A DNA stretch of 50,093 bases. Source: an uncultured Lachnospiraceae bacterium. GTDB lineage: Bacteria > Bacillota > Clostridia > Lachnospirales > Lachnospiraceae. Below the pieces are notes generated by a model. The model was not told the DNA's origin and ran no database searches. It worked only from the letters and a program-made list of their open reading frames with translations. The stretch lies in assembly GCA_946411695.1 (NCBI GenBank), contig CAMKEX010000006.1, positions 1 through 50,093 of the forward strand, given 5' to 3'. Below, piece by piece: positions 3,242-37,452 of the stretch (positions are counted from its first letter, which is position 1; the number at the start of each line of letters is the position of its first letter). Both the position numbers and the translations under genes were made by a program.

Positions 3242-4345
3242 TTACGTCAGCATATCTATAATCTTTTCCAAATCTTCATGGCTGTAGAATTCAATCTCCA
3301 GCCTTCCGCTGCCGTCCCCGCTGTGCCGGATCACTGTCTTGGTTCCCAGTGACTGCTTCAGACGCTCTTCGATTTCTTTGTAGGCAAGTTCCAGAGCCGC
3401 ATCCATTTCAGGAGCTTTTCCCTTTCCGCTGCCTTTCTTTTTCTTCTTTCCGGAAAGTCTCTCCTTGATCAGTTTTTCAACATCGCGGACACTCAGGTGT
3501 TTCTCTGCAATCTGCTGTGCGATCAGATACTGCTCTTCCTGGATCTCCACCGGAATCAGTGCTCTGGCATGTCCCATGGAAATCTCGCCCTGCACGATCA
3601 TATCCTGCACACGCTCGTCGAGTTTGAGCAGACGCATGGAATTGGTGATCGCTGTCCTGGACTTGGAAACCCTGGCTGCCAGATCCTCCTGACGAAGACT
3701 GAACTCATCCAGAAGCCTGCGGAAAGCCTTTGCCTCTTCAATCGGATTCAGATCCTCGCGCTGGATATTTTCGATCAGGGAAAGCTCCAGCGTCTCCTGA
3801 TCCGTATACTCTCTGACAATGGCGGGAATCTCTGTAAGCCCTGCTTTCCTCGATGCGCGCCAGCGCCGCTCACCCGCGATGATCTCGTAGCGGCTTCCTT
3901 TTTTCTGCACAAGGATGGGCTGCAGGACACCGAACTGTCTGATGGAATCCGCCAGTTCCTCAAGGGACTCATCTTCAAAATTCTGACGGGGCTGGCTGCG
4001 GTTGGGATCGATCTGTGAGAGCCGCAGAACACGCACCGCACCTGTATATTCCGCCGCAGTTTCCTGCATGCCGGTCTTTGAGGCAGACCCTTCTGCCGAA
4101 AATGATCCCTCTGCTGAAGAATCTGAAGATTCCGCACCGCCGCCGGATATTCTGACCGGATCCTTTTCTGCTGCTGAAACAGACGCTTCAGGATTATTGC
4201 CTGCTTCTTCAAGGGATTTGTCACCGGAGACATTATTCCCGGAATCAGTATTTCTTCTTTCTTCCTTTTCGGGTTGTTGCGGACGTGCCTGTGGAATCAG
4301 TGCATCCAGTCCTCTTCCCAGACCGCCGTGTCTTCTCTTGGCCAT
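3242..4345 (-). CDS. parB: Chromosome-partitioning protein ParB (Spo0J)
   Basis: A CTP-dependent DNA clamp that loads at parS, spreads and recruits SMC. The N-terminal signature MAKRRHGGLGRGLDALIP (the ParA-contacting region) is followed by a long Ser/Glu/Gly-rich linker at about residues 20-103. The ParB/Srx CTPase domain follows, with GERRWRA (158-164) and ENIQRE (192-197), then the helix-turn-helix (about 217-262) and a C-terminal dimerisation domain. A Lys/Gly-rich patch (300-310) precedes the last domain. The length, 367, exceeds the usual 280-300 because of the first linker. It lies 67 bases after parA. Three matching parS sites lie within 5 kb. Confidence 0.96.
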   Translation of the reverse strand: MAKRRHGGLGRGLDALIPQARPQQPEKEERRNTDSGNNVSGDKSLEEAGNNPEASVSAAEKDPVRISGGGAESSDSSAEGSFSAEGSASKTGMQETAAEYTGAVRVLRLSQIDPNRSQPRQNFEDESLEELADSIRQFGVLQPILVQKKGSRYEIIAGERRWRASRKAGLTEIPAIVREYTDQETLELSLIENIQREDLNPIEEAKAFRRLLDEFSLRQEDLAARVSKSRTAITNSMRLLKLDERVQDMIVQGEISMGHARALIPVEIQEEQYLIAQQIAEKHLSVRDVEKLIKERLSGKKKKKGSGKGKAPEMDAALELAYKEIEERLKQSLGTKTVIRHSGDGSGRLEIEFYSHEDLEKIIDMLT

Positions 4346-4412: not shown

Positions 4413-5171
4413 TCATCTGCCCAGCATTTCCTTTGCAAGTTTCCTGTAGGCTTCCGCACCCGCCGATTTAGGCTCGTAAATTGTGATCGGCTCTCCGTAG
4501 CTGGGTGCCTCTGCCAGACGGATATTGCGGGGGATCAGAGTGTTATAAATACGCTGTTCTACATTTGCCCGTACATTTTCGACCACCTGCGCCGACAGGT
4601 TCGTCCTGGCATCATACATGGTAAATACGATGCCCTCAATATCCAGTCCCGGATTGAGTCTCTCCCTGACAAGATTGATCGTATGGATCAGCTGGCTGAG
4701 TCCTTCCAATGCATAGTATTCACACTGGATCGGCACCAGAACGGAATCGGATGCCGTCATCGCATTCACTGTCAGAACACTCAGTGAGGGAGGGCAGTCC
4801 AGAAAAATATAATCGTAATCGTCTTTTACAAAGTCCAGCGCATCCCGGAGAATATATTCTTTTCTCGGAATACCGATCAGTTCAATCTCTGCCGCTGCAA
4901 GATTTACATTTGACGCGATCAGATCCAGATTGGGTACGACGCCCGGAATGATCGTCTCATTGACAGAACAATCATCCAGCAGAAGCTCATAAATCGTATT
5001 CTCCTGATTGTTTTTATCTACACCGAAGCCGCTCGTCGTATTTCCCTGCGGATCCACATCTATGACCAGTATCTTCTGATCCAGATCTGCCAGGGATGCA
5101 GCAAGATTGATCGTCGTCGTGGTCTTGCCGACGCCGCCCTTCTGATTAGCAACTGCAATAATCTTTCCCAT
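4413..5171 (-). CDS. parA: Chromosome-partitioning ATPase ParA (Soj)
   Basis: A deviant-Walker ATPase that binds DNA non-specifically as an ATP dimer, segregates origins with ParB and, in Bacillus, also modulates DnaA. The 252 residues begin MGKIIAVANQKGGVGKTTTT, with the deviant Walker A KGGVGKT at 11-17. Walker B/switch II appears as YIFLDCPPSL (about residues 121-130). The length is typical for chromosomal Soj proteins, with no N-terminal plasmid-type HTH. It sits between rsmG and parB, all on the minus strand with short gaps, so an rsmG-parA-parB operon is likely. Confidence 0.96.
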   Translation of the reverse strand: MGKIIAVANQKGGVGKTTTTINLAASLADLDQKILVIDVDPQGNTTSGFGVDKNNQENTIYELLLDDCSVNETIIPGVVPNLDLIASNVNLAAAEIELIGIPRKEYILRDALDFVKDDYDYIFLDCPPSLSVLTVNAMTASDSVLVPIQCEYYALEGLSQLIHTINLVRERLNPGLDIEGIVFTMYDARTNLSAQVVENVRANVEQRIYNTLIPRNIRLAEAPSYGEPITIYEPKSAGAEAYRKLAKEMLGR

Positions 5172-5266
5172 TTGATTCTCTTTCCTCAGATTAAATTCTT
5201 AAAAATTTTTCTGTAATTCTGTTTTCTTCGTAGACTGCCGGGATCACATATACGATTCCCTATTCT

Positions 5267-5998
5267 TTATTTCAGAGGGTCCTTTGAAGGAGTTCCGGCC
5301 TTTCTGGGATATTTTCCGGGGGTATGCTTTTCCTTGATCACCTGGACCAGAGTCCGGTTATAATCTGTTCCCGGAAGCCGGAAGGAAATCACCTGATCCA
5401 TTCTTCCGCCGAGAACGGAAACTGCCTTCCTGCCTTCATCCATTTCCTCTTTCAGACGGTCCGCCTTATAGGCGATAAAATAGCCGCCCTTCTTTACAAA
5501 AGGAATACAGTACTCCGCAAGAATGTTCAGTCTGGCTACCGCCCTTGAACATGCGATATCGTACTTTTCCCTTTCAGACTCGATCCTTGCAAATTCTTCT
5601 GCACGGGCATGAAAAACGCTTACATTTTTCAGACCGAGAAGCTGAATGGTATCCTCCAGAAATTTCACCCTTTTCTGAAGTGAATCTACGAGTGTCACCT
5701 TCACTTCAGGAAAAGCGATTGCGATCGGAAGACCGGGAAAGCCTGCTCCTGTTCCTATATCAATGACAGAGATATCCCTGAAACTCTCCGGACTGATCAA
5801 TCCGACAATGGAAAGACTGTCCAGAAAATGTTTGGTGTACACTTCCGACTCTTCTGTGATTGCCGTCAGATTCATCACTTCATTCCACTTGATCAGATTC
5901 TCATAAAACATCCTGAACTGCCGCAGCTGGTCTTCATTGAGCTGCAGCTGAAACTCAGAGAGCTGTTCTGAAAATTTCTGTTCTGTTTTTTCCAGCAT
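5267..5998 (-). CDS. rsmG: 16S rRNA (guanine-527-N7) methyltransferase RsmG (GidB)
   Basis: Transfers a methyl group from SAM to N7 of G527 in 16S rRNA. The SAM-binding motif VIDIGTGAGFPGLPIA is at about residues 78-93, followed by VTLVDSLQKRVKFLE and the CSRAVA segment near 150. At 243 residues it is normal length. The ribosome binding site is weak: a GGAAGG lies rather far from the ATG, so the start is slightly uncertain. In many Firmicutes rsmG directly follows mnmG. Here 3.2 kb carrying parS, a hydrolase and a YihY gene separate them. Confidence 0.95.
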   Translation of the reverse strand: MLEKTEQKFSEQLSEFQLQLNEDQLRQFRMFYENLIKWNEVMNLTAITEESEVYTKHFLDSLSIVGLISPESFRDISVIDIGTGAGFPGLPIAIAFPEVKVTLVDSLQKRVKFLEDTIQLLGLKNVSVFHARAEEFARIESEREKYDIACSRAVARLNILAEYCIPFVKKGGYFIAYKADRLKEEMDEGRKAVSVLGGRMDQVISFRLPGTDYNRTLVQVIKEKHTPGKYPRKAGTPSKDPLK

Positions 5999-6049
5999 TC
6001 TTTTTATTATGATGCCCCTTCCTGAAAAGCACCATATTCCTTTCTATAA

Positions 6050-6082
6050 ATTCAAGACTTACCCACGAGTCTTATGCGCGTA
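6050..6082 (-). repeat. Dispersed hairpin repeat, copy 1 (inverted)
   Basis: TTCAAGACT and the complementary AGTCTT enclose a short loop, followed by a GCGCG block. It is the reverse complement of the form seen at 26231-26266. It lies about 60 bases before the first parS site. Confidence 0.5.
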
Positions 6083-6140
6083 TATCACGATTGAAGTCTC
6101 GTTCCTGTTCATTAAAAAATAAATAAGATGTTCCGCAAAA

Positions 6141-6156
6141 TGTTTCACGTGAAACA
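6141..6156. promoter_or_regulatory. parS: parS site 1
   Basis: TGTTTCACGTGAAACA, a perfect match to the bacterial ParB-binding consensus. A partial half-site, TGTTCCGCAAAA (6129-6140), abuts it upstream. Confidence 0.95.
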
Positions 6157-6198
6157 TTTTCCAGACTCACATGTTCATCCTGTCATAAAACACAGCAG

Positions 6199-6240
6199 TT
6201 CATTCATGGCTCGGTTTCGCATCTTGTGCTCCGGATGAAG
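6199..6240 (-). repeat. Dispersed hairpin repeat, copy 2 (degenerate)
   Basis: TTCATTCATGGCTCG and then ATCTTGTGC and GGATGAAG align with the repeat copy at 6493 in the same order and spacing, with several mismatches. It follows parS 1 at the same distance at which copy 3 follows parS 2. Confidence 0.4.
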
Positions 6241-6434
6241 CCTGGAAATCTTCCTCACTGTGTACGTGCTGTATCCAACACACCTTCGATTGCAGAAACC
6301 TTTATTCCTGATCAACCCTTATCAGTGGATCTTTACCCGCAGAGAAGCGAATTTCCCATTTCGTTTTTCGTTATGATTCCACACCCGGGGATACTCTTCT
6401 GCACGCGGACAGATTCACAGGATGTTTCACGAAA

Positions 6435-6450
6435 TGTTTCACGTGAAACA
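6435..6450. promoter_or_regulatory. parS: parS site 2
   Basis: Perfect TGTTTCACGTGAAACA. A 12-base partial copy, TGTTTCACGAAA (6423-6434), directly precedes it, giving a tandem of one half-site and one full site, as at parS 1. Confidence 0.95.
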
Positions 6451-6492
6451 TTTCTGAACCCTCATGTATAAATTCCGGCTTCATACACTGCA

Positions 6493-6555
6493 ATTCATTC
6501 AAGACTCGCTTACGGATCTTGCGCGTCGAGCGCAGGTATTGCGAGGTGAAGAATA
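6493..6555 (-). repeat. Dispersed hairpin repeat, copy 3 (inverted)
   Basis: TTCATTCAAGACTCGC, then GGATCTTGCGCG, GAGCGCAGGTATTGCGAGG and TGAAGAATA. The reverse complement aligns along most of its length with the first part of the copy at 31680. Confidence 0.55.
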
Positions 6556-6880
6556 AACCGGTTTTTGCACTTCCTACATCCTAACACAACCATATTTTTG
6601 CGTAAACACTAAAAATAGCAGGGTTTCACTATTCCCGACCATTCCAATCATCAGGGTGTCAACACATGCTCCGCATGTGTATGAAGCGTTTACACGAAAG
6701 CGAAAACGGTGAAGGATCACAGGATGTCTGCAGCCGTCCCGCGGCAAAATCATCCGGAGTTAGAAAACTGTACAAGCATTATTTTTCTCTCTTTTATATG
6801 ATTCATTGCCATGCTATCTTATTCCTGTAGTATTCCGAAATCGATCAGAAGCAGTTTTCAGGCATGTATCTTTTCCTGAT

Positions 6881-6923
6881 TGCATAATACACGTGACTTC
6901 AAAACCTCAATCATGGGATAAGC
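6881..6923 (+). repeat. Possible degenerate hairpin repeat, copy 4
   Basis: TGCATAATACACGTGACTTCA followed by GGGATAAGCA resembles the 34166-34212 copy (CAATACCCGTGACTTCA ... GGGATATGCA) with several mismatches. Weak. Confidence 0.25.
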
Positions 6924-7197
6924 AAACAAAACAGAAACCTGCTTCATCATGAGTATAAGTCCGCGATCAAGAATATATACTCCTTCAAATATACTCCTTC
7001 GAACCGAAGAGTTGCTTAATGTACATAATGCTGCACGGGGATACAAGGCTCGCCGCTGCTCACGAACAAAACCGGCGTCTTTAAATGTTGATCTTTTTTC
7101 ATACGGATTCAGAGATTCGCGCAGATCACAGGCAGCATTTGTTCAGTAAAAAGGAAGCCCGATTATTGTAACAGCATATTTATAAAGGTTAAGTCCT

Positions 7198-8013
7198 ATG
7201 AGAAAAAAGATAAAAAACGGAACCGTAGTGCTGGACAACACAGATCTCTACTATGCCTCATTCGGGAGCGGAAGCAAAACGCTTGTCGTACTGCCCGGCC
7301 TTTCAGACGGTCTCGCTACTGTAAGGGGAAAAGCATGGATCCTTTCTCTGCCCTACAGAAAATATTTGAAAGAGTATACCGTATACATGTTCAGCAGAAA
7401 GAATAACATGCCTGAAGGGTATACGATCAGAGAGATGGCTCAGGACCAGGTTCGGGCCATGAAGAAACTCGGAATACAAAGTGCATGCATTCTCGGTGTT
7501 TCACAGGGCGGAATGATAGCTCAGTATATCGCCATCGACCATCCCGAAATGACAGAAAAGCTTGTTCTGGCCGTCACTGCACCTTATGCAAATAAGGTAG
7601 TCAGTCAGGCTGTGAGTACCTGGATCAAAATGGCAGAACGAAGTGATCACACTGCACTCATGATTGATACTGCTGAGAAAATGTACTCACAGGCCTATCT
7701 TCACAGAAACAGAAAACTGTTCCGGCTGCTGGCCGGATTCACAAAGCCCAAAAGCTATGAACGTTTCCTCAAAAATGCATATGCAATACTGGGATTCGAC
7801 GCACGAAAGGAACTGTCACAGATCAGCTGTCCGACTCTGGTCATAGCCGGAGGAAATGACCTCACCGTCGGAAACAAGGCTCATTATGAGCTGAAACACA
7901 GAATCCCGGATTGCAAATTATATATCTACAAAAAGCTCGGACACGGCGCCTTCGAAGAAGGCAGAGACTTTTATGACAGAGTATTTCATTTTTTGTCGAA
8001 GGACAGATCATAA
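7198..8013 (+). CDS. Alpha/beta-hydrolase fold protein
   Basis: A 271-residue cytoplasmic hydrolase of the alpha/beta fold. The oxyanion segment VVLPGLSDG (about residues 30-38) is followed by the nucleophile elbow GVSQGG (about 100-105). The acid lies in VIAGGNDLTVG (about 216-226), and the histidine in LGHGAFEEG near the C-terminus. The triad is therefore complete. The substrate is not predictable; the closest broad class is the small esterase/lipase-like hydrolases. An AAAGGTTAAG site precedes the ATG. It is a single plus-strand gene in an otherwise minus-strand arm, convergent with the YihY gene, with a parS palindrome between them. Confidence 0.85.
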   Translation: MRKKIKNGTVVLDNTDLYYASFGSGSKTLVVLPGLSDGLATVRGKAWILSLPYRKYLKEYTVYMFSRKNNMPEGYTIREMAQDQVRAMKKLGIQSACILGVSQGGMIAQYIAIDHPEMTEKLVLAVTAPYANKVVSQAVSTWIKMAERSDHTALMIDTAEKMYSQAYLHRNRKLFRLLAGFTKPKSYERFLKNAYAILGFDARKELSQISCPTLVIAGGNDLTVGNKAHYELKHRIPDCKLYIYKKLGHGAFEEGRDFYDRVFHFLSKDRS

Positions 8014-8164
8014 AGACCCGCGGGATATTCTGGCAATCCATTCCATATAATCCATTCCATACAATCTGTTACGAAAAAATATGTCTCAGAAAAAAACGTC
8101 ATATCCGCAAAAAATGGATCACTGCAATAATTGATGAACCTGCAAAAATCATGCGCAGCACCCT
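8014..8164. other. Intergenic stretch with a short tandem repeat
   Basis: Contains a near-perfect tandem repeat of 14 bases, ATCCATTCCATATA then ATCCATTCCATACA (about 8036-8063), followed by A-rich sequence. No gene or terminator of its own; transcripts from the hydrolase probably end at the palindrome further on. Confidence 0.4.
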
Positions 8165-8214
8165 CATACAAAAACATACAAAAACATACAAAAACTTATA
8201 AAAACATATAAAAA
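8165..8214. repeat. Five phased A-tracts (10-bp tandem repeat)
   Basis: Five consecutive 10-base units: CATACAAAAA three times, then CTTATAAAAA and CATATAAAAA. Each carries a run of five or more A at exactly one helical turn, the classical arrangement for intrinsically curved DNA. The array runs directly into the parS palindrome. Confidence 0.9.
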
Positions 8215-8256
8215 CCAGGAGCCAATGTTTCACGTGAAACATTGGCTCCTGGTTTT
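8211..8256. terminator. Perfect 46-bp palindrome containing parS, probable bidirectional terminator
   Basis: Arms of 23 bases (8211-8233 and 8234-8256) are exact reverse complements: AAAACCAGGAGCCAATG leads into the parS core and the mirror half ends in GGTTTT. As RNA it would form a GC-containing hairpin preceded by A and followed by U on both strands, as expected for a terminator between the convergent hydrolase and YihY genes. Terminator activity is inferred. Confidence 0.75.
8226..8241. promoter_or_regulatory. parS: parS site 3
   Basis: Perfect TGTTTCACGTGAAACA, exactly at the centre of the 46-bp palindrome. Confidence 0.95.
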
Positions 8257-8283
8257 AACAGCTTTAAGAGTATTAACAAAAGA

Positions 8284-9174
8284 TCATGTTGAGCAGTCCA
8301 TTGACACCTTTACCTGCAGTGCCCTGTTCAGAGATGCTCCATAAAAAAGAAAGGTCATGATAAACCTCAGCCACATTGCGATCAAAAAGACCGCGGCCAG
8401 TGTTCCGTAAACGGAAGACATTTTCCAGAATCGAGTGATAAAGTAACCGAAGGCTTTTGTAAAAAAGGCCCACATGAAGGAAGAAAAAATACTGCCGGGA
8501 AGCTGATTCCTGATCTTTCTCTTTCCGGAAGGAAGAAAAGTAAATGTCAGGACAATGATCAGGATCATAGCGGCAAGTGTGATGATTCCGCTGTATTCCA
8601 GAATATTGTTGATCCTGACGGCAATTTCCGGAAGCATGAGCACCTCGAAAAGATTTGTGATCAGATTCTCAATAGAAGAACGGAGCATCTGAAACAGCAG
8701 CATGGAAGGAATCAGCAATGAGAACAGAACCGCATATAAAATTGCCTTCAGCCTTGTACGAATATATTTTCTCTGCGTGTGATTGATTTTCTCAAGTCCG
8801 ACCATCAATGCCGAAATTCCATGAGAACCTGTCCACAGGCAGGTAAGGGCAAAAGCAGAAACAACCATAGTTCCCGAGTATCTATTCAGATTGAAGATAA
8901 TGGAAACAATCGTCGTTCGAATCTGCGGAATATCAGGTACAGAATCCATAAGGAAATTGCTCACATCCTCGACAGTGAACCAGGGGAGGAGATTGATGAT
9001 CGAAATGATCAACATCAAAAGAGGCACTGTCGAAACCATAAAATAGTATGTTGCATTTCCTGAATACACACTCATTTCATGCTTTGAAAATACTTCCACT
9101 GTTCTCCTAATCAGTGAAATGAAAGCATTATTTTTCATGAAATCATATTTTTTCATGAAATCTTCTTTTTTCAT
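8284..9174 (-). CDS. YihY/BrkB-family membrane protein
   Basis: A multi-spanning inner-membrane protein of the YihY (formerly BrkB/'RNase BN') family, function not established. About six hydrophobic helices are visible, for example TYYFMVSTVPLLMLIISIIN, AILYAVLFSLLIPSMLLF and MILIIVLTFTFLP. The family signature includes the Y-x-G-N-A-T-Y-Y-F start and the C-terminal TAAVFLIAMWLRF-like segment. The start is set at the ATG at 9174, which follows AGGGAG by 6 bases; an upstream TTG at 9198 would overlap mnmG. The N-terminus carries three near-repeats (MKKEDF, MKKYDF, MKNNAF) encoded by repeated TTTCATGAAAAA-type DNA. It starts 20 bases after mnmG and is probably co-transcribed with it. Confidence 0.88.
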   Translation of the reverse strand: MKKEDFMKKYDFMKNNAFISLIRRTVEVFSKHEMSVYSGNATYYFMVSTVPLLMLIISIINLLPWFTVEDVSNFLMDSVPDIPQIRTTIVSIIFNLNRYSGTMVVSAFALTCLWTGSHGISALMVGLEKINHTQRKYIRTRLKAILYAVLFSLLIPSMLLFQMLRSSIENLITNLFEVLMLPEIAVRINNILEYSGIITLAAMILIIVLTFTFLPSGKRKIRNQLPGSIFSSFMWAFFTKAFGYFITRFWKMSSVYGTLAAVFLIAMWLRFIMTFLFYGASLNRALQVKVSMDCST

Positions 9175-9194
9175 AAAGAACTCCCTGCCATAGG

Positions 9195-11225
9195 TCAAGA
9201 TTTAGCTGCGGATACTGAACCGCCTTTTCCTCTGTTCTTCTCCAGATATATGAGAAGGACGGTGATATCTGCGGGTGTAACACCGGAAATACGGGAAGCC
9301 TGACCTATAGAGGAAGGAAGAAAAGCTTTGAGTTTCTGCCGGGCTTCGTTGCGGAGGCTTCCGACTTCGTCATAGTCGATCCAGGCCGGAATCTTCCTGT
9401 GTTCAAGTTTTTCAAACTGCTGTACCTGTTTTTTCTGCCTGTCTATATATCCCTCATAGCGGATATTGATCTCAACCTGTTCCGTAATATCCTTTGTGAG
9501 ATCGGGTCTTTCGGGATCCAGGGGAGCGATCCTGTCATAGGAGAGTTCCGGTCTGCAGATCAGTTCCGCTAATGTACAGGCGGTTTTCAGTTCCGCCGAA
9601 CCCAGGGAGCGAAGGATTTCCTGGTTGGAGGCGGCAGCTCCGACTCTGATCTTCTTGAGTCGGGCAGTTTCCTCCTCGATCATTTTTTCCTTGTAGCAGA
9701 CATAGTCGTACTGCTCCTGTGTGATCAGGCCCTCTTTATAGCCGTATTTGCGAAGACGCAGGTCTGCATTGTCCTGTCTGAGCAAAAGTCTGTACTCGGC
9801 ACGTGAAGTCATCATTCGGTAGGGCTCACGGTTGTCTTTTGTCACGAGGTCATCGATCAGGACACCGATATAGGCTTCAGACCGCTCCAGGATCAGAGGT
9901 TCTTTTCCCCGGATTTTATTGACGGCATTGATGCCTGCGATCAGTCCCTGTGCCGCCGCTTCTTCATAGCCGCTGCTTCCGTTAAACTGGCCTGCACAGA
10001 AAAGTCCGTCAACTGCCTTTGTCTCAAGGGAGAGTTTCAGCTGGTTGGCATTGATACAGTCATATTCGATCGCATAGGCATTTTTAACGATCACACAATT
10101 TTCCAGACCCGGTACAGTGCGGTACATGCGCTGCTGCACATCATCGGGCATGGAAGAGGACATTCCATCTACATAGACTTCATTGGTGAAACGTCCCTCG
10201 GGTTCGATAAACACATGGTGCCGGTTCTTTTCACTGAATTTGACAACCTTATCTTCAATGGAGGGACAGTAGCGGGGACCGGTTCCTTCTATAATACCGG
10301 CATAGATGGGAGAGCGGTCCAGGTTCTGGCGGATGATCTCGTGGGTCTCCTCATTCGTATAGGTCAGCCAGCAGGGAACCTGCTCGATCTGTACATCTGC
10401 AGGATCCGTGGAATAGGAGAAGGGTACGACTACAGGATCTCCGGGCTGGATCTTCATTCTGGAATAATCCAGTGTCCTTCCGTCCATTCGGGCAGGCGTA
10501 CCGGTCTTGAAACGGCGAAGAGGGATTCCAAGATGATCCATGGAATTTTTCAGCCAGGTCGACCGCTGCATACCGCCGGGGCCTGTCTCGGTGATGGATT
10601 CGCCCACAAGACATCTTGCGTTCAGATATGTGCCTGTGCAGATGATTGCCGCCTTGCATGTATAGATTGTTCCCGTATGGATCCTGACACCGGCAACGCG
10701 GGGCTTTTCAGAATCGGGACTTCCTTCTATAGAATCATTTAAATCATTAGAGCAATTTATATTATCAGGATCATTGGATATTTGATCCTTACTGCAGCCA
10801 TCACTCTCAATCTTCAGCTTTTCCAGATCATACTGGGTCAGGATATCAGTGACTTCAACCTGACGGATGGTCAAATTTTCCTGGTTTTCCAGAATTTTCC
10901 GCATTGCCTTGGAATATTCCGCCTTGTCCGCCTGGGTGCGCAGAGAATGGACTGCAGGGCCTTTGGATCTGTTGAGCATCTTGGACTGGATAAAGGTCTT
11001 ATCAATGTTTTTGCCCATCTCACCGCCCAGGGCATCGATTTCTCTCACCAGATGTCCCTTGGAGGATCCTCCGATATGGGGATTGCAGGGCATCATGGCA
11101 ATGCTGTCCACATTCATCGTGAAAATGACCGTGCGATATCCAAGCCGGGCGCAGGCAAGCGCCGCTTCACAGCCGGCATGTCCGGCACCGATCACACATA
11201 CGTCAGTGTCAATAAAGTAATTCAT
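9195..11225 (-). CDS. mnmG: tRNA uridine-34 carboxymethylaminomethyl modification enzyme MnmG (GidA)
   Basis: An FAD enzyme that, with MnmE, installs the cmnm5 group on wobble uridine 34 of certain tRNAs. The dinucleotide-binding motif [12 protein letters not shown] lies near the N-terminus, followed by [13 protein letters not shown] and the [13 protein letters not shown] stretch. Later come [12 protein letters not shown] and the ALFCAGQ-like FAD segment ([18 protein letters not shown]). The ATG at 11225 follows GGAG by 8 bases; a GTG at 11240 is the alternative. At 676 residues it is longer than the usual 620-640 because of a hydrophilic insertion of about 40 residues (roughly 136-175) encoded by AT-rich DNA at 10700-10820. 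Its normal partner mnmE is adjacent. Confidence 0.95.
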
Positions 11226-11313
11226 TAAATCGTTCTCCACACAAATCCAACCGGATCAACGGAAAATCAGGCATTATGCATTTGCAGATCTGCAGCATCG
11301 GCAGGGTCCGCAA

Positions 11314-12795
11314 TTATTTGCCCATACAGAATTTCGAGAAGATTTCCTCCACGAGGTCATCCTCCACGGCTTCACCAGTGATCCTTCCCAGACTGGCATA
11401 GGCGTTCATCAGATCGATCGCGTAAAAGTCCTCGCTCATCCCCATGGAGATGCTCTGACGGACCATGGAAAGTGCTTCGTAGGCTTCCCTCACAGCTTCT
11501 CTGTGACGGGCATTGGTGATCATGGCTTCGCTCTGATGGCTCAGTTCACCCATATGATACATCTTTTCGATGGTCATGCCCAGTTCCTGTGCACCTTCTC
11601 CTGTACGAAGCGAGCAGGACAATACTTCATCCGCCTCAGTAAAAAAGCTTCGGACAGCATCTGAGTCCGTCACCGGGGGGAGATCACTTTTATTTAAAAG
11701 TATAATACATTTGCGGACAGAAGGAAGTTCCTGTTTCCACTGCTTCAAAATCATCCCGATCGACTGATCCTCCTTTGTGATTCCCTCGGAAGCATCGATC
11801 AGATAAAGGACCAGTTCAGATTCCTCAACGGCATCTTTTGCGCGGGCAATGCCGATCTTTTCAACCCGGTCGTCTGTATCGCGGATACCGGCAGTATCTG
11901 TCAGGCGGAGCTGAATGCCCCTCACACGGACACTCTCCTCGAGAGTGTCACGGGTCGTCCCTGCGATCTCTGTCACAATAGCCCTTTCCGTTCCGGACAG
12001 GTAATTGAGAAGAGAAGACTTTCCGGCATTTGGCCTTCCGATGATCGCGGTGCGGATTCCTTCTTTGAGGACAGCGCCTTTTTCTCCGATTTCCAGAAGG
12101 CTTTCCATGCGGGAGAGAAGCTTTTCACAGATACTGTCAAGACGATCCGCATATCCTTCCAGGTCGGAGGCATAGCTGTCGGGATCATCGATCGCGGATT
12201 CTATAAATGCCATTTCATAGAGGATGGCAGAGCGCAGTTCTTTAACACTTTCCGAAACACTGCCGCCAAGCTGGGCCAGAGCTGTTTTCCTGGCAAACTC
12301 ATTCTGCGAAGCGATCAGGTCCATGACGGCTTCCGCTCTGGAAAGATCGATCCTTCCTCCCAGGAAAGCGCGCTTTGTGAACTCGCCGGGATCGGCCAGC
12401 CGGGCACCGCCCCGGAGCACCAGATCAAGGATCCTGTTCAGAAGATAGGTTCCCCCGTGGGAGTTGATTTCCACAGTGTCCTCGGTTGTATAGCTGCGGG
12501 GCGCCTTAAAGACGCTGATCATGACCTCGTCGATCCGGTTTCCTTCCCTGTCTTCAATATAGCCGAATACAATGGTATTTGCGGCATGATCCTGAAGATC
12601 GTGCTCTCCCCTTGCATTTACGTAGAGTTCCGCACAGATTCTGACAGCATCGGGACCGCTGACACGGATGATTCCGATTCCCGCCGCGGACATGGCTGTC
12701 GCAGCTGCCGCGATCGTATCATTCCTGCTTTTGTCTATATAGCTACTGTTCAAAAATGAGTTGTTCTGAAGCATTTTATCCATGTTCCTGTTCAC
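11314..12795 (-). CDS. mnmE: tRNA modification GTPase MnmE (TrmE)
   Basis: A homodimeric, K+-activated GTPase that binds formyl-tetrahydrofolate and works with MnmG on tRNA U34. The N-terminal domain starts at DTIAAAATAMSAAGIGIIRVSG. The G1 motif GRPNAGKSSLLN is followed by TTRDTLEE (G2), DTAGIR (G3) and NKSD (G4). It ends in the conserved C-terminal CMGK, whose cysteine is required in the family. The extra 25 or so N-terminal residues before the conserved part make the start uncertain: the GTG at 12795 and ATGs at 12783 and 12774 are all possible. It is followed by mnmG after 88 bases. Confidence 0.95.
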   Translation of the reverse strand: MNRNMDKMLQNNSFLNSSYIDKSRNDTIAAAATAMSAAGIGIIRVSGPDAVRICAELYVNARGEHDLQDHAANTIVFGYIEDREGNRIDEVMISVFKAPRSYTTEDTVEINSHGGTYLLNRILDLVLRGGARLADPGEFTKRAFLGGRIDLSRAEAVMDLIASQNEFARKTALAQLGGSVSESVKELRSAILYEMAFIESAIDDPDSYASDLEGYADRLDSICEKLLSRMESLLEIGEKGAVLKEGIRTAIIGRPNAGKSSLLNYLSGTERAIVTEIAGTTRDTLEESVRVRGIQLRLTDTAGIRDTDDRVEKIGIARAKDAVEESELVLYLIDASEGITKEDQSIGMILKQWKQELPSVRKCIILLNKSDLPPVTDSDAVRSFFTEADEVLSCSLRTGEGAQELGMTIEKMYHMGELSHQSEAMITNARHREAVREAYEALSMVRQSISMGMSEDFYAIDLMNAYASLGRITGEAVEDDLVEEIFSKFCMGK

Positions 12796-17113: not shown

Positions 17114-18481
17114 ATGAACGAGGAATTGATCAGACAAAGGTGGTTATGGATCAAAGAACATATCCGCAACGAATACCGCCTTTCAAATATATCCTATACA
17201 ACATGGATCGAAAATCTGGAGATTGCAGATATACGCGACAATATCGTCTATATCCGCATTCCTTCTGACAAACCGATCATGCTTGACTACATTGTCAACA
17301 ACTTCAAGGTTTTCTTCGAGATCACGATCACGGAAATGCTCGATGAGCACTACAGTGTCGAGTTTCTTCTGACAGACCAGGTGCAGAAGGAACAGCCGGC
17401 GGAGGAACACAGATCCGTCGTGAGCAGCCAGCAGATTGAGAACGCAAATCTCAATCCCAAATACCGCTTCGATACATTTATCGTCGGAAGTAATAACAAA
17501 TTTGCTCAGTCAGCCTGTGTCGCTGTGGCCGAATCTCCTGGAAATACCTATAATCCCCTCTTCCTCTACGGAGGCGCGGGACTTGGCAAAACGCACCTGA
17601 TGCATTCGATCGGCCACTATATTCTGGAGATGAGTCCTTCCAAGCGGGTCCTCTACGTCACCAGTGAGCAGTTCACAAACGAAGTCATCGAATCGATCCG
17701 TTCCGGTAATGCTACCTCCATGGCAAGGCTGCGCGACAAATACAGGACCGTCGATGTCCTGCTCATCGATGACATACAGTTTATAATAGGAAAAGAATCG
17801 ACTCAGGAAGAGTTTTTCCACACCTTCAACGAGCTACATCAGGCAGGAAAACAGATCGTTCTGTCCTCCGACCGGCCTCCCCGTGAAATGGAGACACTGG
17901 ACGAACGCTTCCGTTCCCGTTTCGAATGGGGACTGATCGCGGATATCCAGCCGCCGGATTACGAGACCAGGATGGCGATCCTCCGCAAAAACGCAGAGAT
18001 CACAGGCAGGCATCTGGACGACGAGATCCTGGAATACGTTGCGACAAATATCAAGTCCAACATCCGTGAACTGGAAGGTGCCTTCAACAAGATCATCGCC
18101 TACTCCAGACTCAATAACGTGGATGCCAACCTGACCAATGCCCGCGAGGCCCTCAAGGATATCATCGATCCCGACAGACAAAATGTCATCACACCGGATA
18201 TGATCCTGCGTGTTGTCTGCGAACACTACGATGTGCGCGCTTCCAATATTATTTCCCGGAAAAAGAATGCATCCCTGGTCATTCCCCGTCAGGTCATCAT
18301 GTATATCTGCAGAGAATACACAGATGCAACACTGGAAAATATAGCAAAGCTTCTGGGCAAAAAAGACCATTCCACAGTCATGTACGGTGTCGACAAGATC
18401 AAAAACGAAATGGTCACCAACGGAGAACTGCGCGGAAACGTAGAAGTGATCCTGAAAAAATTAAATATCAACCAGAATTAA
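17114..18481 (+). CDS. dnaA: Chromosomal replication initiator DnaA
   Basis: An AAA+ ATPase that binds the DnaA boxes of oriC, opens the origin and loads the helicase. The 455 residues comprise domain I (about 1-85), a short variable domain II (about 88-112) and domain III starting at NPKYRFDTFIVGSNNKFA. Domain III has Walker A GGAGLGKT (153-160) and Walker B VLLIDDIQFI. Domain IV ends with the DNA-binding signature KKDHSTVMYGVDKI. A GGAGG ribosome binding site lies 5 bases before the ATG. Complete, no anomalies. Confidence 0.98.
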   Translation: MNEELIRQRWLWIKEHIRNEYRLSNISYTTWIENLEIADIRDNIVYIRIPSDKPIMLDYIVNNFKVFFEITITEMLDEHYSVEFLLTDQVQKEQPAEEHRSVVSSQQIENANLNPKYRFDTFIVGSNNKFAQSACVAVAESPGNTYNPLFLYGGAGLGKTHLMHSIGHYILEMSPSKRVLYVTSEQFTNEVIESIRSGNATSMARLRDKYRTVDVLLIDDIQFIIGKESTQEEFFHTFNELHQAGKQIVLSSDRPPREMETLDERFRSRFEWGLIADIQPPDYETRMAILRKNAEITGRHLDDEILEYVATNIKSNIRELEGAFNKIIAYSRLNNVDANLTNAREALKDIIDPDRQNVITPDMILRVVCEHYDVRASNIISRKKNASLVIPRQVIMYICREYTDATLENIAKLLGKKDHSTVMYGVDKIKNEMVTNGELRGNVEVILKKLNINQN

Positions 18482-26266: not shown

Positions 26267-26590
26267 TAAAACGCGGTCATATGTGCCCGGCGCGCTGCCT
26301 TTGCGCTTTGAAAGAGACGGAACATAGGTGGCTACGGAGAAATAGGGGAATTATTATAGTTTATTGAAATAAAAATTGCGTTTTAATGAAAATTTCACAA
26401 TTTTCAGATTAAAAATACCGAATAGTAGCTAAAAATGTACAAAAACAGGGAAAATATGGCTTGCTACTTTGTTAAGATTTTCATAAAATATAGAGTACAG
26501 ATGCTACAGATGCAGATAACATTATTTAGAGATGCAATTTAAAAAGAGTCTCAGTAAAAAACATTATAATCGGCAAAGGAGGAATTACGT
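26267..26590. other. Leader and promoter region of the thiolase gene
   Basis: About 320 AT-rich bases without a gene. It holds the thiolase promoter and a leader of roughly 95 bases. A lone TTGTTAA (about 26469-26475) resembles half of a Rex redox-repressor site, but the second half is missing. Confidence 0.5.
26461..26489 (+). promoter_or_regulatory. Thiolase promoter
   Basis: TTGCTA (26461-26466), 17-base spacer, TAAAAT (26484-26489). A strong AAAGGAGG site lies at about 26575-26582, before the ATG. Confidence 0.65.
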
Positions 26591-37300: not shown

Positions 37301-37386
37301 AAATACTGCCGCTTACAATTGTTTGCGGCAATAACTATTACAATAAAAACTATTTTAGGGTAATTACTGTTTTTGAGTAAAAAAAG

Positions 37387-37428
37387 TCCTGAGGATATCC
37401 GCAAAAGAGGGATATCCTCAGGATTTTT
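37387..37428. terminator. Terminator after the aminotransferase gene
   Basis: A 14-bp perfect stem, TCCTGAGGATATCC (37387-37400) and GGATATCCTCAGGA (37410-37423), then five T, with five A before. It lies only 25 bases before the trmL start, so trmL must be read through or have a promoter inside. Confidence 0.9.
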
Positions 37429-37452
37429 ACAGGAAAAGCCCGGAGGGAAAAA

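Follow-up and report, generated by a model that had tools for sequence, protein, structure and literature searches.

The stretch of DNA analyzed here (hereafter, the window; 50,093 bp from the genome of an uncultured Lachnospiraceae bacterium) spans an origin region. The plus strand carries dnaA (17114–18481), dnaN, a gene for a RecF/SMC-type ATPase, and gyrB, and the minus strand carries rnpA, yidC, jag, mnmE, gidA, and a BrkB-family gene, followed by gidB, parA, parB, and serS (Table 1). Exact copies of parS, TGTTTCACGTGAAACA, begin at positions 6141, 6435, and 8226 and match the chromosomal consensus TGTTNCACGTGAAACA given in PMC7022226. These origin-proximal sites share the window with parB, parA, dnaA, dnaN, and gyrB, and the exact 16-bp consensus, the several copies near dnaA, and the presence of parAB in the same cluster are all as in known origin-proximal ParABS systems. 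A search of the 3.71-Mb draft genome (301 contigs, ≈90.5% complete) with one mismatch tolerated returned no further parS. The named sequences closest to its ParB come mostly from Lachnospiraceae, probably the family of this genome. A half-site, TGTTTCACG (6423–6431), lies three bases before parS 2 (window 6423–6450), and half-sites beside parS also occur in some family genomes among the matches listed (e.g., G403 and G358).

Table 1. Features of the window surrounding the three parS sites
Feature	Position	Strand	Remarks
parB	3242–4345	−	
parA	4413–5171	−	
parS 1	6141–6156	.	Arm of 12; divergent gidB/hydrolase region
parS 2	6435–6450	.	Arm of 12; divergent gidB/hydrolase region, TGTTTCACG half-site just before
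Alpha/beta hydrolase gene	7198–8013	+	Convergent; stop at 8013; gap of 197 bases to the palindrome
Phased array of five A-tracts (tandem CATACAAAAA repeat with a period of 10)	8165–8215	+	5.1 copies (Tandem Repeats Finder); predicted bend
T-rich end and tail of minus-strand terminator (predicted)	8200–8214	−	TTTTT ATATG TTTTT; four of the first five T in the stem
Perfect 46-bp palindrome, parS at centre	8211–8256	.	Predicted to fold as RNA into a 21-pair stem with an ACGU loop (both strands)
parS 3, exact consensus TGTTTCACGTGAAACA	8226–8241	.	Centre of the 46-bp palindrome
BrkB-family gene (PF03631)	8284–9198	−	3' end towards the hairpin
gidA/mnmG	9195–11240	−	Upstream of brkB, same strand
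mnmE/trmE	11314–12795	−	Same strand as gidA and brkB

The third parS, a predicted ParB-binding site, is found between the convergent hydrolase and brkB genes, as had been claimed for it from the sequence alone. Only 27 bases separate the edge of its palindrome (8256) from the brkB stop codon (8284), which places it at the 3' end of a gene and of what is likely a single minus-strand operon, mnmE–gidA–brkB. In this part of the window (5267–11240), gidA is followed by the BrkB-family gene, whereas in many relatives gidB occupies this position; here, gidB is next to parA instead. The relative G014 has the same arrangement. An 18-bp tandem repeat (9119–9178, 3.4 copies) covers the early codons of the called brkB frame, and the match to the G014 BrkB begins at residue 26; the true brkB start may thus lie further in.

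The sequence-only reading had centred a perfect 46-bp palindrome exactly on this parS and had described the other two sites as lacking this feature and the adjacent A-tracts, and both descriptions hold. The 23-base arms make it the longest zero-spacer palindrome in the window, followed by the two other parS sites (arms of 12 bases each, with no A-tracts) and then by an arm of 10; the longest arm in 40 Markov shuffles of the window is 11. For 74-nt stretches, the predicted minimum free energy is −39.3 kcal/mol (minus strand) or −35.9 kcal/mol (plus strand), with z ≈ −11, compared with −18.7 and −22.9 kcal/mol for the other two parS sites (z ≈ −3). Read on the minus strand, which is the coding strand of the preceding brkB gene, the stem closes with and continues into TTTTTATATGTTTTT, a T-rich tail; the plus strand has TTTTAACAGCTTT after the stem. 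A terminator consensus scan of positions 5000 to 12000 returned 10 terminator-like rows against 5.6 expected by shuffling, and the two rows with the most pairs (20) correspond to the parS hairpin, called with its T-rich tail on the minus strand only. On the plus strand, the scan gave no row from the hydrolase stop onward to the hairpin, which it did not call on that strand either. The bidirectional terminator suggested earlier is therefore possible, but weaker on the plus strand. A search for an Rfam identity yielded seven matches at E values up to 1, all to microRNA families and far below the gathering scores, and these were rejected.

To place this palindrome in the context of other parS sites, we surveyed related genomes. 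A first look covered 41 genomes (24 own-genus relatives, 16 of the order, and the organism's own), 22 of which harbor parS. The first set was drawn from these parS-bearing genomes, 80 named loci found by ParB, and 48 genomes of the family (own included) of the 297 with a match, with one G303 site excepted. The second set (L294–L353) is not a clean hold-out, since genera g11, g354, and g209 were picked because a member had a palindrome; its order and phylum genomes were hand-picked, and some had previously been seen as 3-kb loci. Families f22 and f47 form the clean hold-out. The main set, which leaves out short loci (L001–L054, L207–L293, and L354–L357), offered 259 loci with 469 parS sites; four sites were dropped for short flanks or N, among them a hairpin of the own genus that sits where a contig ends (L144 15–30), and 19 for repeated flanks, leaving 446 sites in 220 loci. 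As the null, left and right flanks of different sites were re-paired.

These analyses firmly establish an excess of palindromes at parS. Arms extended by at least 6 perfect pairs are found at 60 of the 446 distinct exact parS sites, in 54 of the 220 loci (null mean 2.2, maximum 7 in 1000 re-pairings); extension by at least 8 pairs is found at 40 sites (null 0.30, maximum 3) and by at least 10 pairs at 28 (null 0.06), all of these being lower bounds because perfect-arm counts skip bulged hairpins (e.g., L144 2455, with 13 pairs after a 1-nt bulge). With every locus counted, 64 of 482 sites reach at least 6 pairs, against 2.55 in the null. The first set contributes 23 of 280 distinct sites with at least 8 pairs beyond the core (null ≈0.23–0.31), and the second set, partly chosen from palindrome-bearing genera, 18 of 103 with at least 6 (null 0.37). 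In the fresh families, the counts are 9 of 37 in f22, of the same order (null 0.23), and 2 of 26 in f47, outside the order (null 0.09). Across the first and second sets, sites with at least 6 pairs number 13/100 in the family, 8/36 in genus g209 of the same family, 13/46 in other families of the order, 1/32 in other orders of the phylum, and 10/127 among the named loci; the own genus accounts for 4/42, and most of its parS sites are thus unlike the third site of the window. Arm sequences vary between extended sites, and four species of the same genus (L013, L014, L015, and L017) have long parS palindromes with wholly unlike arms. Conservation in relatives, proposed earlier as a check on the locus, is accordingly borne out for the palindromic arms as structure and not as sequence, and the A-tract phasing does not recur. 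The longest arms noted belong to a 58-bp perfect palindrome (29-base arms) around a parS of a Clostridium sp. metagenome-assembled genome (L115 4084–4099), with parA on one side and a parB-like gene on the other. Elsewhere, assembled contigs open with the border of such a palindrome (L144 15–30 on G018:C101) or directly with parS (G020:C168:1–16), as if the assembly breaks there.

Comparison of orthologous sites provides additional insight into how the arms change. G014 (L148) conserves the order gidA–brkB–hairpin, and the two BrkB proteins share 78% identity. On the brkB-sense strand, the G014 arm reads GACAGAGTGTAA where the window has ACCAGGAGCCAA; both arms nevertheless find a matching partner within their own hairpin, and the T-run is conserved. 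Paired changes between orthologues may also come from template switching. In genus g11, a parS-centred hairpin is found just after parB in all five species compared (L136, L318, L319, L320, and L321; predicted folds, z = −5.7 to −6.9), and the parAB operon of this genus may thus end in its own centromere site. A second g11 site, before parA, has arms of at least 17 in three of the five species and not in the other two. A pair-by-pair table, which covers the parB-end site only, comprises 14 pair positions and 70 pairs on the parB-sense strand, of which 51 are Watson–Crick, 13 G–U, none A–C, and 6 other, an excess of G–U over A–C as expected for RNA. Re-pairing the arms across species gives standard pairs in 199 of 280 cases, versus 64 of 70 within species; these cross-species pairs include 58 G–U and 9 A–C and are also rich in G–U, so part of the bias reflects shared ancestry. 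Over all sites, G–U and A–C pairs stand at 20:7, and at 10:7 without g11, in counts where related species are not independent; the direct RNA-level signal thus rests on g11.

Extended sites are also distinguished by their position relative to genes, which were called by a simple longest-ORF rule at a minimum of 90 residues. Of those with at least 6 added pairs, 41 of 56 have a facing 3' end no more than 200 bp away, compared with 174 of 360 other sites (p = 0.0004); the difference is weaker among intergenic sites (41/55 versus 174/284, p = 0.04), and counting all loci gives 44/60 versus 190/389, with T-runs again at 15:3 (see below). In the second set, the first and the second threshold give p = 0.05 and 0.12, respectively, and in f22 and f47 together the enrichment is not significant (6/11 versus 21/50, p = 0.33). 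By setting, the extended share is 1/77 inside genes, 2/45 in divergent regions, 49/272 in tandem regions, 4/22 in convergent regions, and 4/30 at locus edges. Among records other than metagenome-assembled genomes, Lachnospiraceae bacterium A2 (L077) has a site with 17-base arms that the gene calls place between convergent genes, and GAM79 (L058) has one with 18-base arms whose setting looks divergent. In the first and second sets, 37 extended sites face a gene 3' end at a distance of 250 bp or less. The gene in question matches gidB in six of these, brkB in two, parB in two, and gidA in one, and in the remaining 26 it has no match to any of 11 query proteins; this variety suggests that extended sites arose repeatedly and do not descend from a single one.

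A T-run of at least four at the stem end on the gene-sense strand occurs at 25 of 42 extended sites, compared with 33 of 145 barely extended sites (p = 1e-5). At the 42 extended sites with one facing 3' end, an antisense T-run is found in 13, sense-only exceeds antisense-only by 15:3 (p = 0.004), and 14 have no T-run of four on either strand (e.g., L145, L146, L138, and L115). The strand bias, noticed in the first set before counting, is 10:0 there and 5:3 in the second set (not significant); f22 and f47 have no sense-only and no antisense-only sites, two with both, and five with neither (not significant). These features argue strongly for a terminator reading of many extended sites, the third parS of the window included, and not of all. 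Some long palindromes lack a T-tract, and the terminator features of the fresh families are not significant; DNA-level or mutational causes are therefore possible for a subset.

The five A-tracts beside the palindrome, noted from the sequence at the outset, are indeed AAAAA runs starting at 8170, 8180, 8190, 8200, and 8210, with an exact 10-bp period. Such spacing at the helical period is characteristic of bent DNA, and four of the five bases of the last tract form the outer end of the left arm of the palindrome. A wedge model predicts 130 degrees of bending across 80 bp at the array, more than anywhere else in the window (mean 28), and the array probably bends DNA; the bends that the model gives for the other two parS sites are unremarkable. 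The next most bent stretches in this model are 26371–26465 and 37361–37445. Four or more A4–6 tracts at 10- to 11-bp spacing within 120 bp are found at none of 380 other parS sites, the brkB-end orthologue in G014 included. In the organism's own genome, the repeat, with two mismatches allowed, has three overlapping matches in the array and one elsewhere (C32:14265), and the reversed control has three. Curvature as part of the locus design thus stands as a predicted local bend and fails as a recurring trait. We regard the array as a locus-specific feature private to this genome and outside the recurring design, most simply a tandem repeat that, read on the minus strand, provides an extra T-rich tail behind the terminator.

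Collectively, we consider it probable that the locus is a dual-use element near the origin, an intrinsic (Rho-independent) terminator with parS as the apex of its hairpin, best read as acting mainly for the minus-strand mnmE–gidA–brkB operon. At the DNA level, the central 16 bp would load ParB. Transcripts of mnmE–gidA–brkB would fold parS and the 15-base outer arms into the 21-pair hairpin, which together with the U-rich stretch behind it would stop RNA polymerase; convergent hydrolase transcripts may likewise be stopped, by the T4 run of the opposite strand. Over evolution, the 16-bp core would be kept for ParB, and in the outer arms pairing alone would be kept for RNA. Termination at this hairpin is a prediction, and one use of the element may affect the other: a terminator around parS would limit transcription past the loading site, and ParB bound at parS might help halt the polymerase. 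The proposal of the sequence-only reading that ParB loading and transcription stop are combined in one locus is well supported as a reading by the recurring hairpins, the changed arms, the gene 3' ends, and the sense-strand T-runs, the latter two not being significant in the fresh families.

The main rival, which we regard as rather unlikely, is that mutation extends the arms at the DNA level: template switching at an origin-proximal replication fork would turn imperfect inverted repeats around parS into perfect ones, with no function for the RNA hairpin. Many arms are perfect rather than G–U containing, the palindrome excess in f22 is strong and its terminator features are not significant, and template switching could explain members with no T-tracts, among them the 14 of 42 extended sites described above, as well as paired changes between orthologues. 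Set against this are the few extended sites inside genes or in divergent regions, a pattern that selection could also produce by purging them, the sense-strand T-runs (25/42 versus 33/145), and the 13 G–U and zero A–C pairs in g11, subject to the ancestry caveat.

A further step beyond the dual-use reading is ParB-gated termination, in which a ParB roadblock strengthens the stop, the terminator shields the loading site, and occupancy is coupled to the expression of mnmE–gidA, or of parAB where parB precedes the hairpin. ParB clamps are described as loading at parS and sliding, with a stably bound roadblock halting sliding unless recruitment in trans bypasses it (PMC9242446). We consider such gating unlikely.

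It is improbable, in our assessment, that the palindrome works instead as DNA, through cruciform extrusion or as an extended ParB/Noc site that alters ParB loading. Compatible with such a role are perfect palindromes whose arms reach 29 bases (L115) and the predicted bend beside the window site. Beyond the A/T bases adjacent to the core, however, the arms differ from site to site by eye, and no motif longer than the core is evident. The majority of the parS sites in these genomes have short arms, and g11 retains G–U pairs, which would disrupt a palindrome in DNA; the lack of an evident common sequence in the outer arms and the retained G–U pairs make this role less likely. Finally, a chance coincidence of an ordinary terminator and parS in this genome only, consistent with an extended hairpin at just one of the three window sites, is very improbable given 40 sites versus 0.3 across relatives, a recurrence above the re-pairing null that counts against it.

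The preferred reading, a terminator with parS at its apex, relates to several known systems. The site described for ParABS is a 16-bp palindrome, whereas the window core is nested in a far longer one with species-variable outer arms. As in other intrinsic terminators, the window hairpin has a stable predicted stem and a T-rich tail and lies just past a stop codon; unlike them, its apical 16 nt are a fixed DNA–protein site, and its stem is long, with 21 pairs. A further parallel is found in the DNA uptake sequence terminators of Neisseria and Pasteurellaceae, in which a protein-recognized DNA word doubles as a hairpin (PMC1852404, PMC3630211). Those hairpins are described as formed by closely spaced complementary copies of a word that serves DNA uptake and occurs hundreds of times per genome (PMC1852404, PMC3630211), whereas the window element has a single palindromic centromere site as its apex, few copies per genome, and free outer arms. 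In the open-access literature searched, we found no description of a chromosomal parS inside a terminator, which is weak evidence of absence, and the word "terminator" does not appear in the main text of a review of chromosomal ParB (PMC7022226).

If this reading is correct, a bacterial centromere site and a terminator would occupy the same bases in many species, with arms turning over freely. Individual genomes would then provide, by nature, both parS sites that carry a terminator and parS sites that lack one, and the mutual effect of transcription and ParB loading at the origin would be directly testable. Furthermore, mutating such a parS could alter transcriptional read-through besides chromosome segregation.
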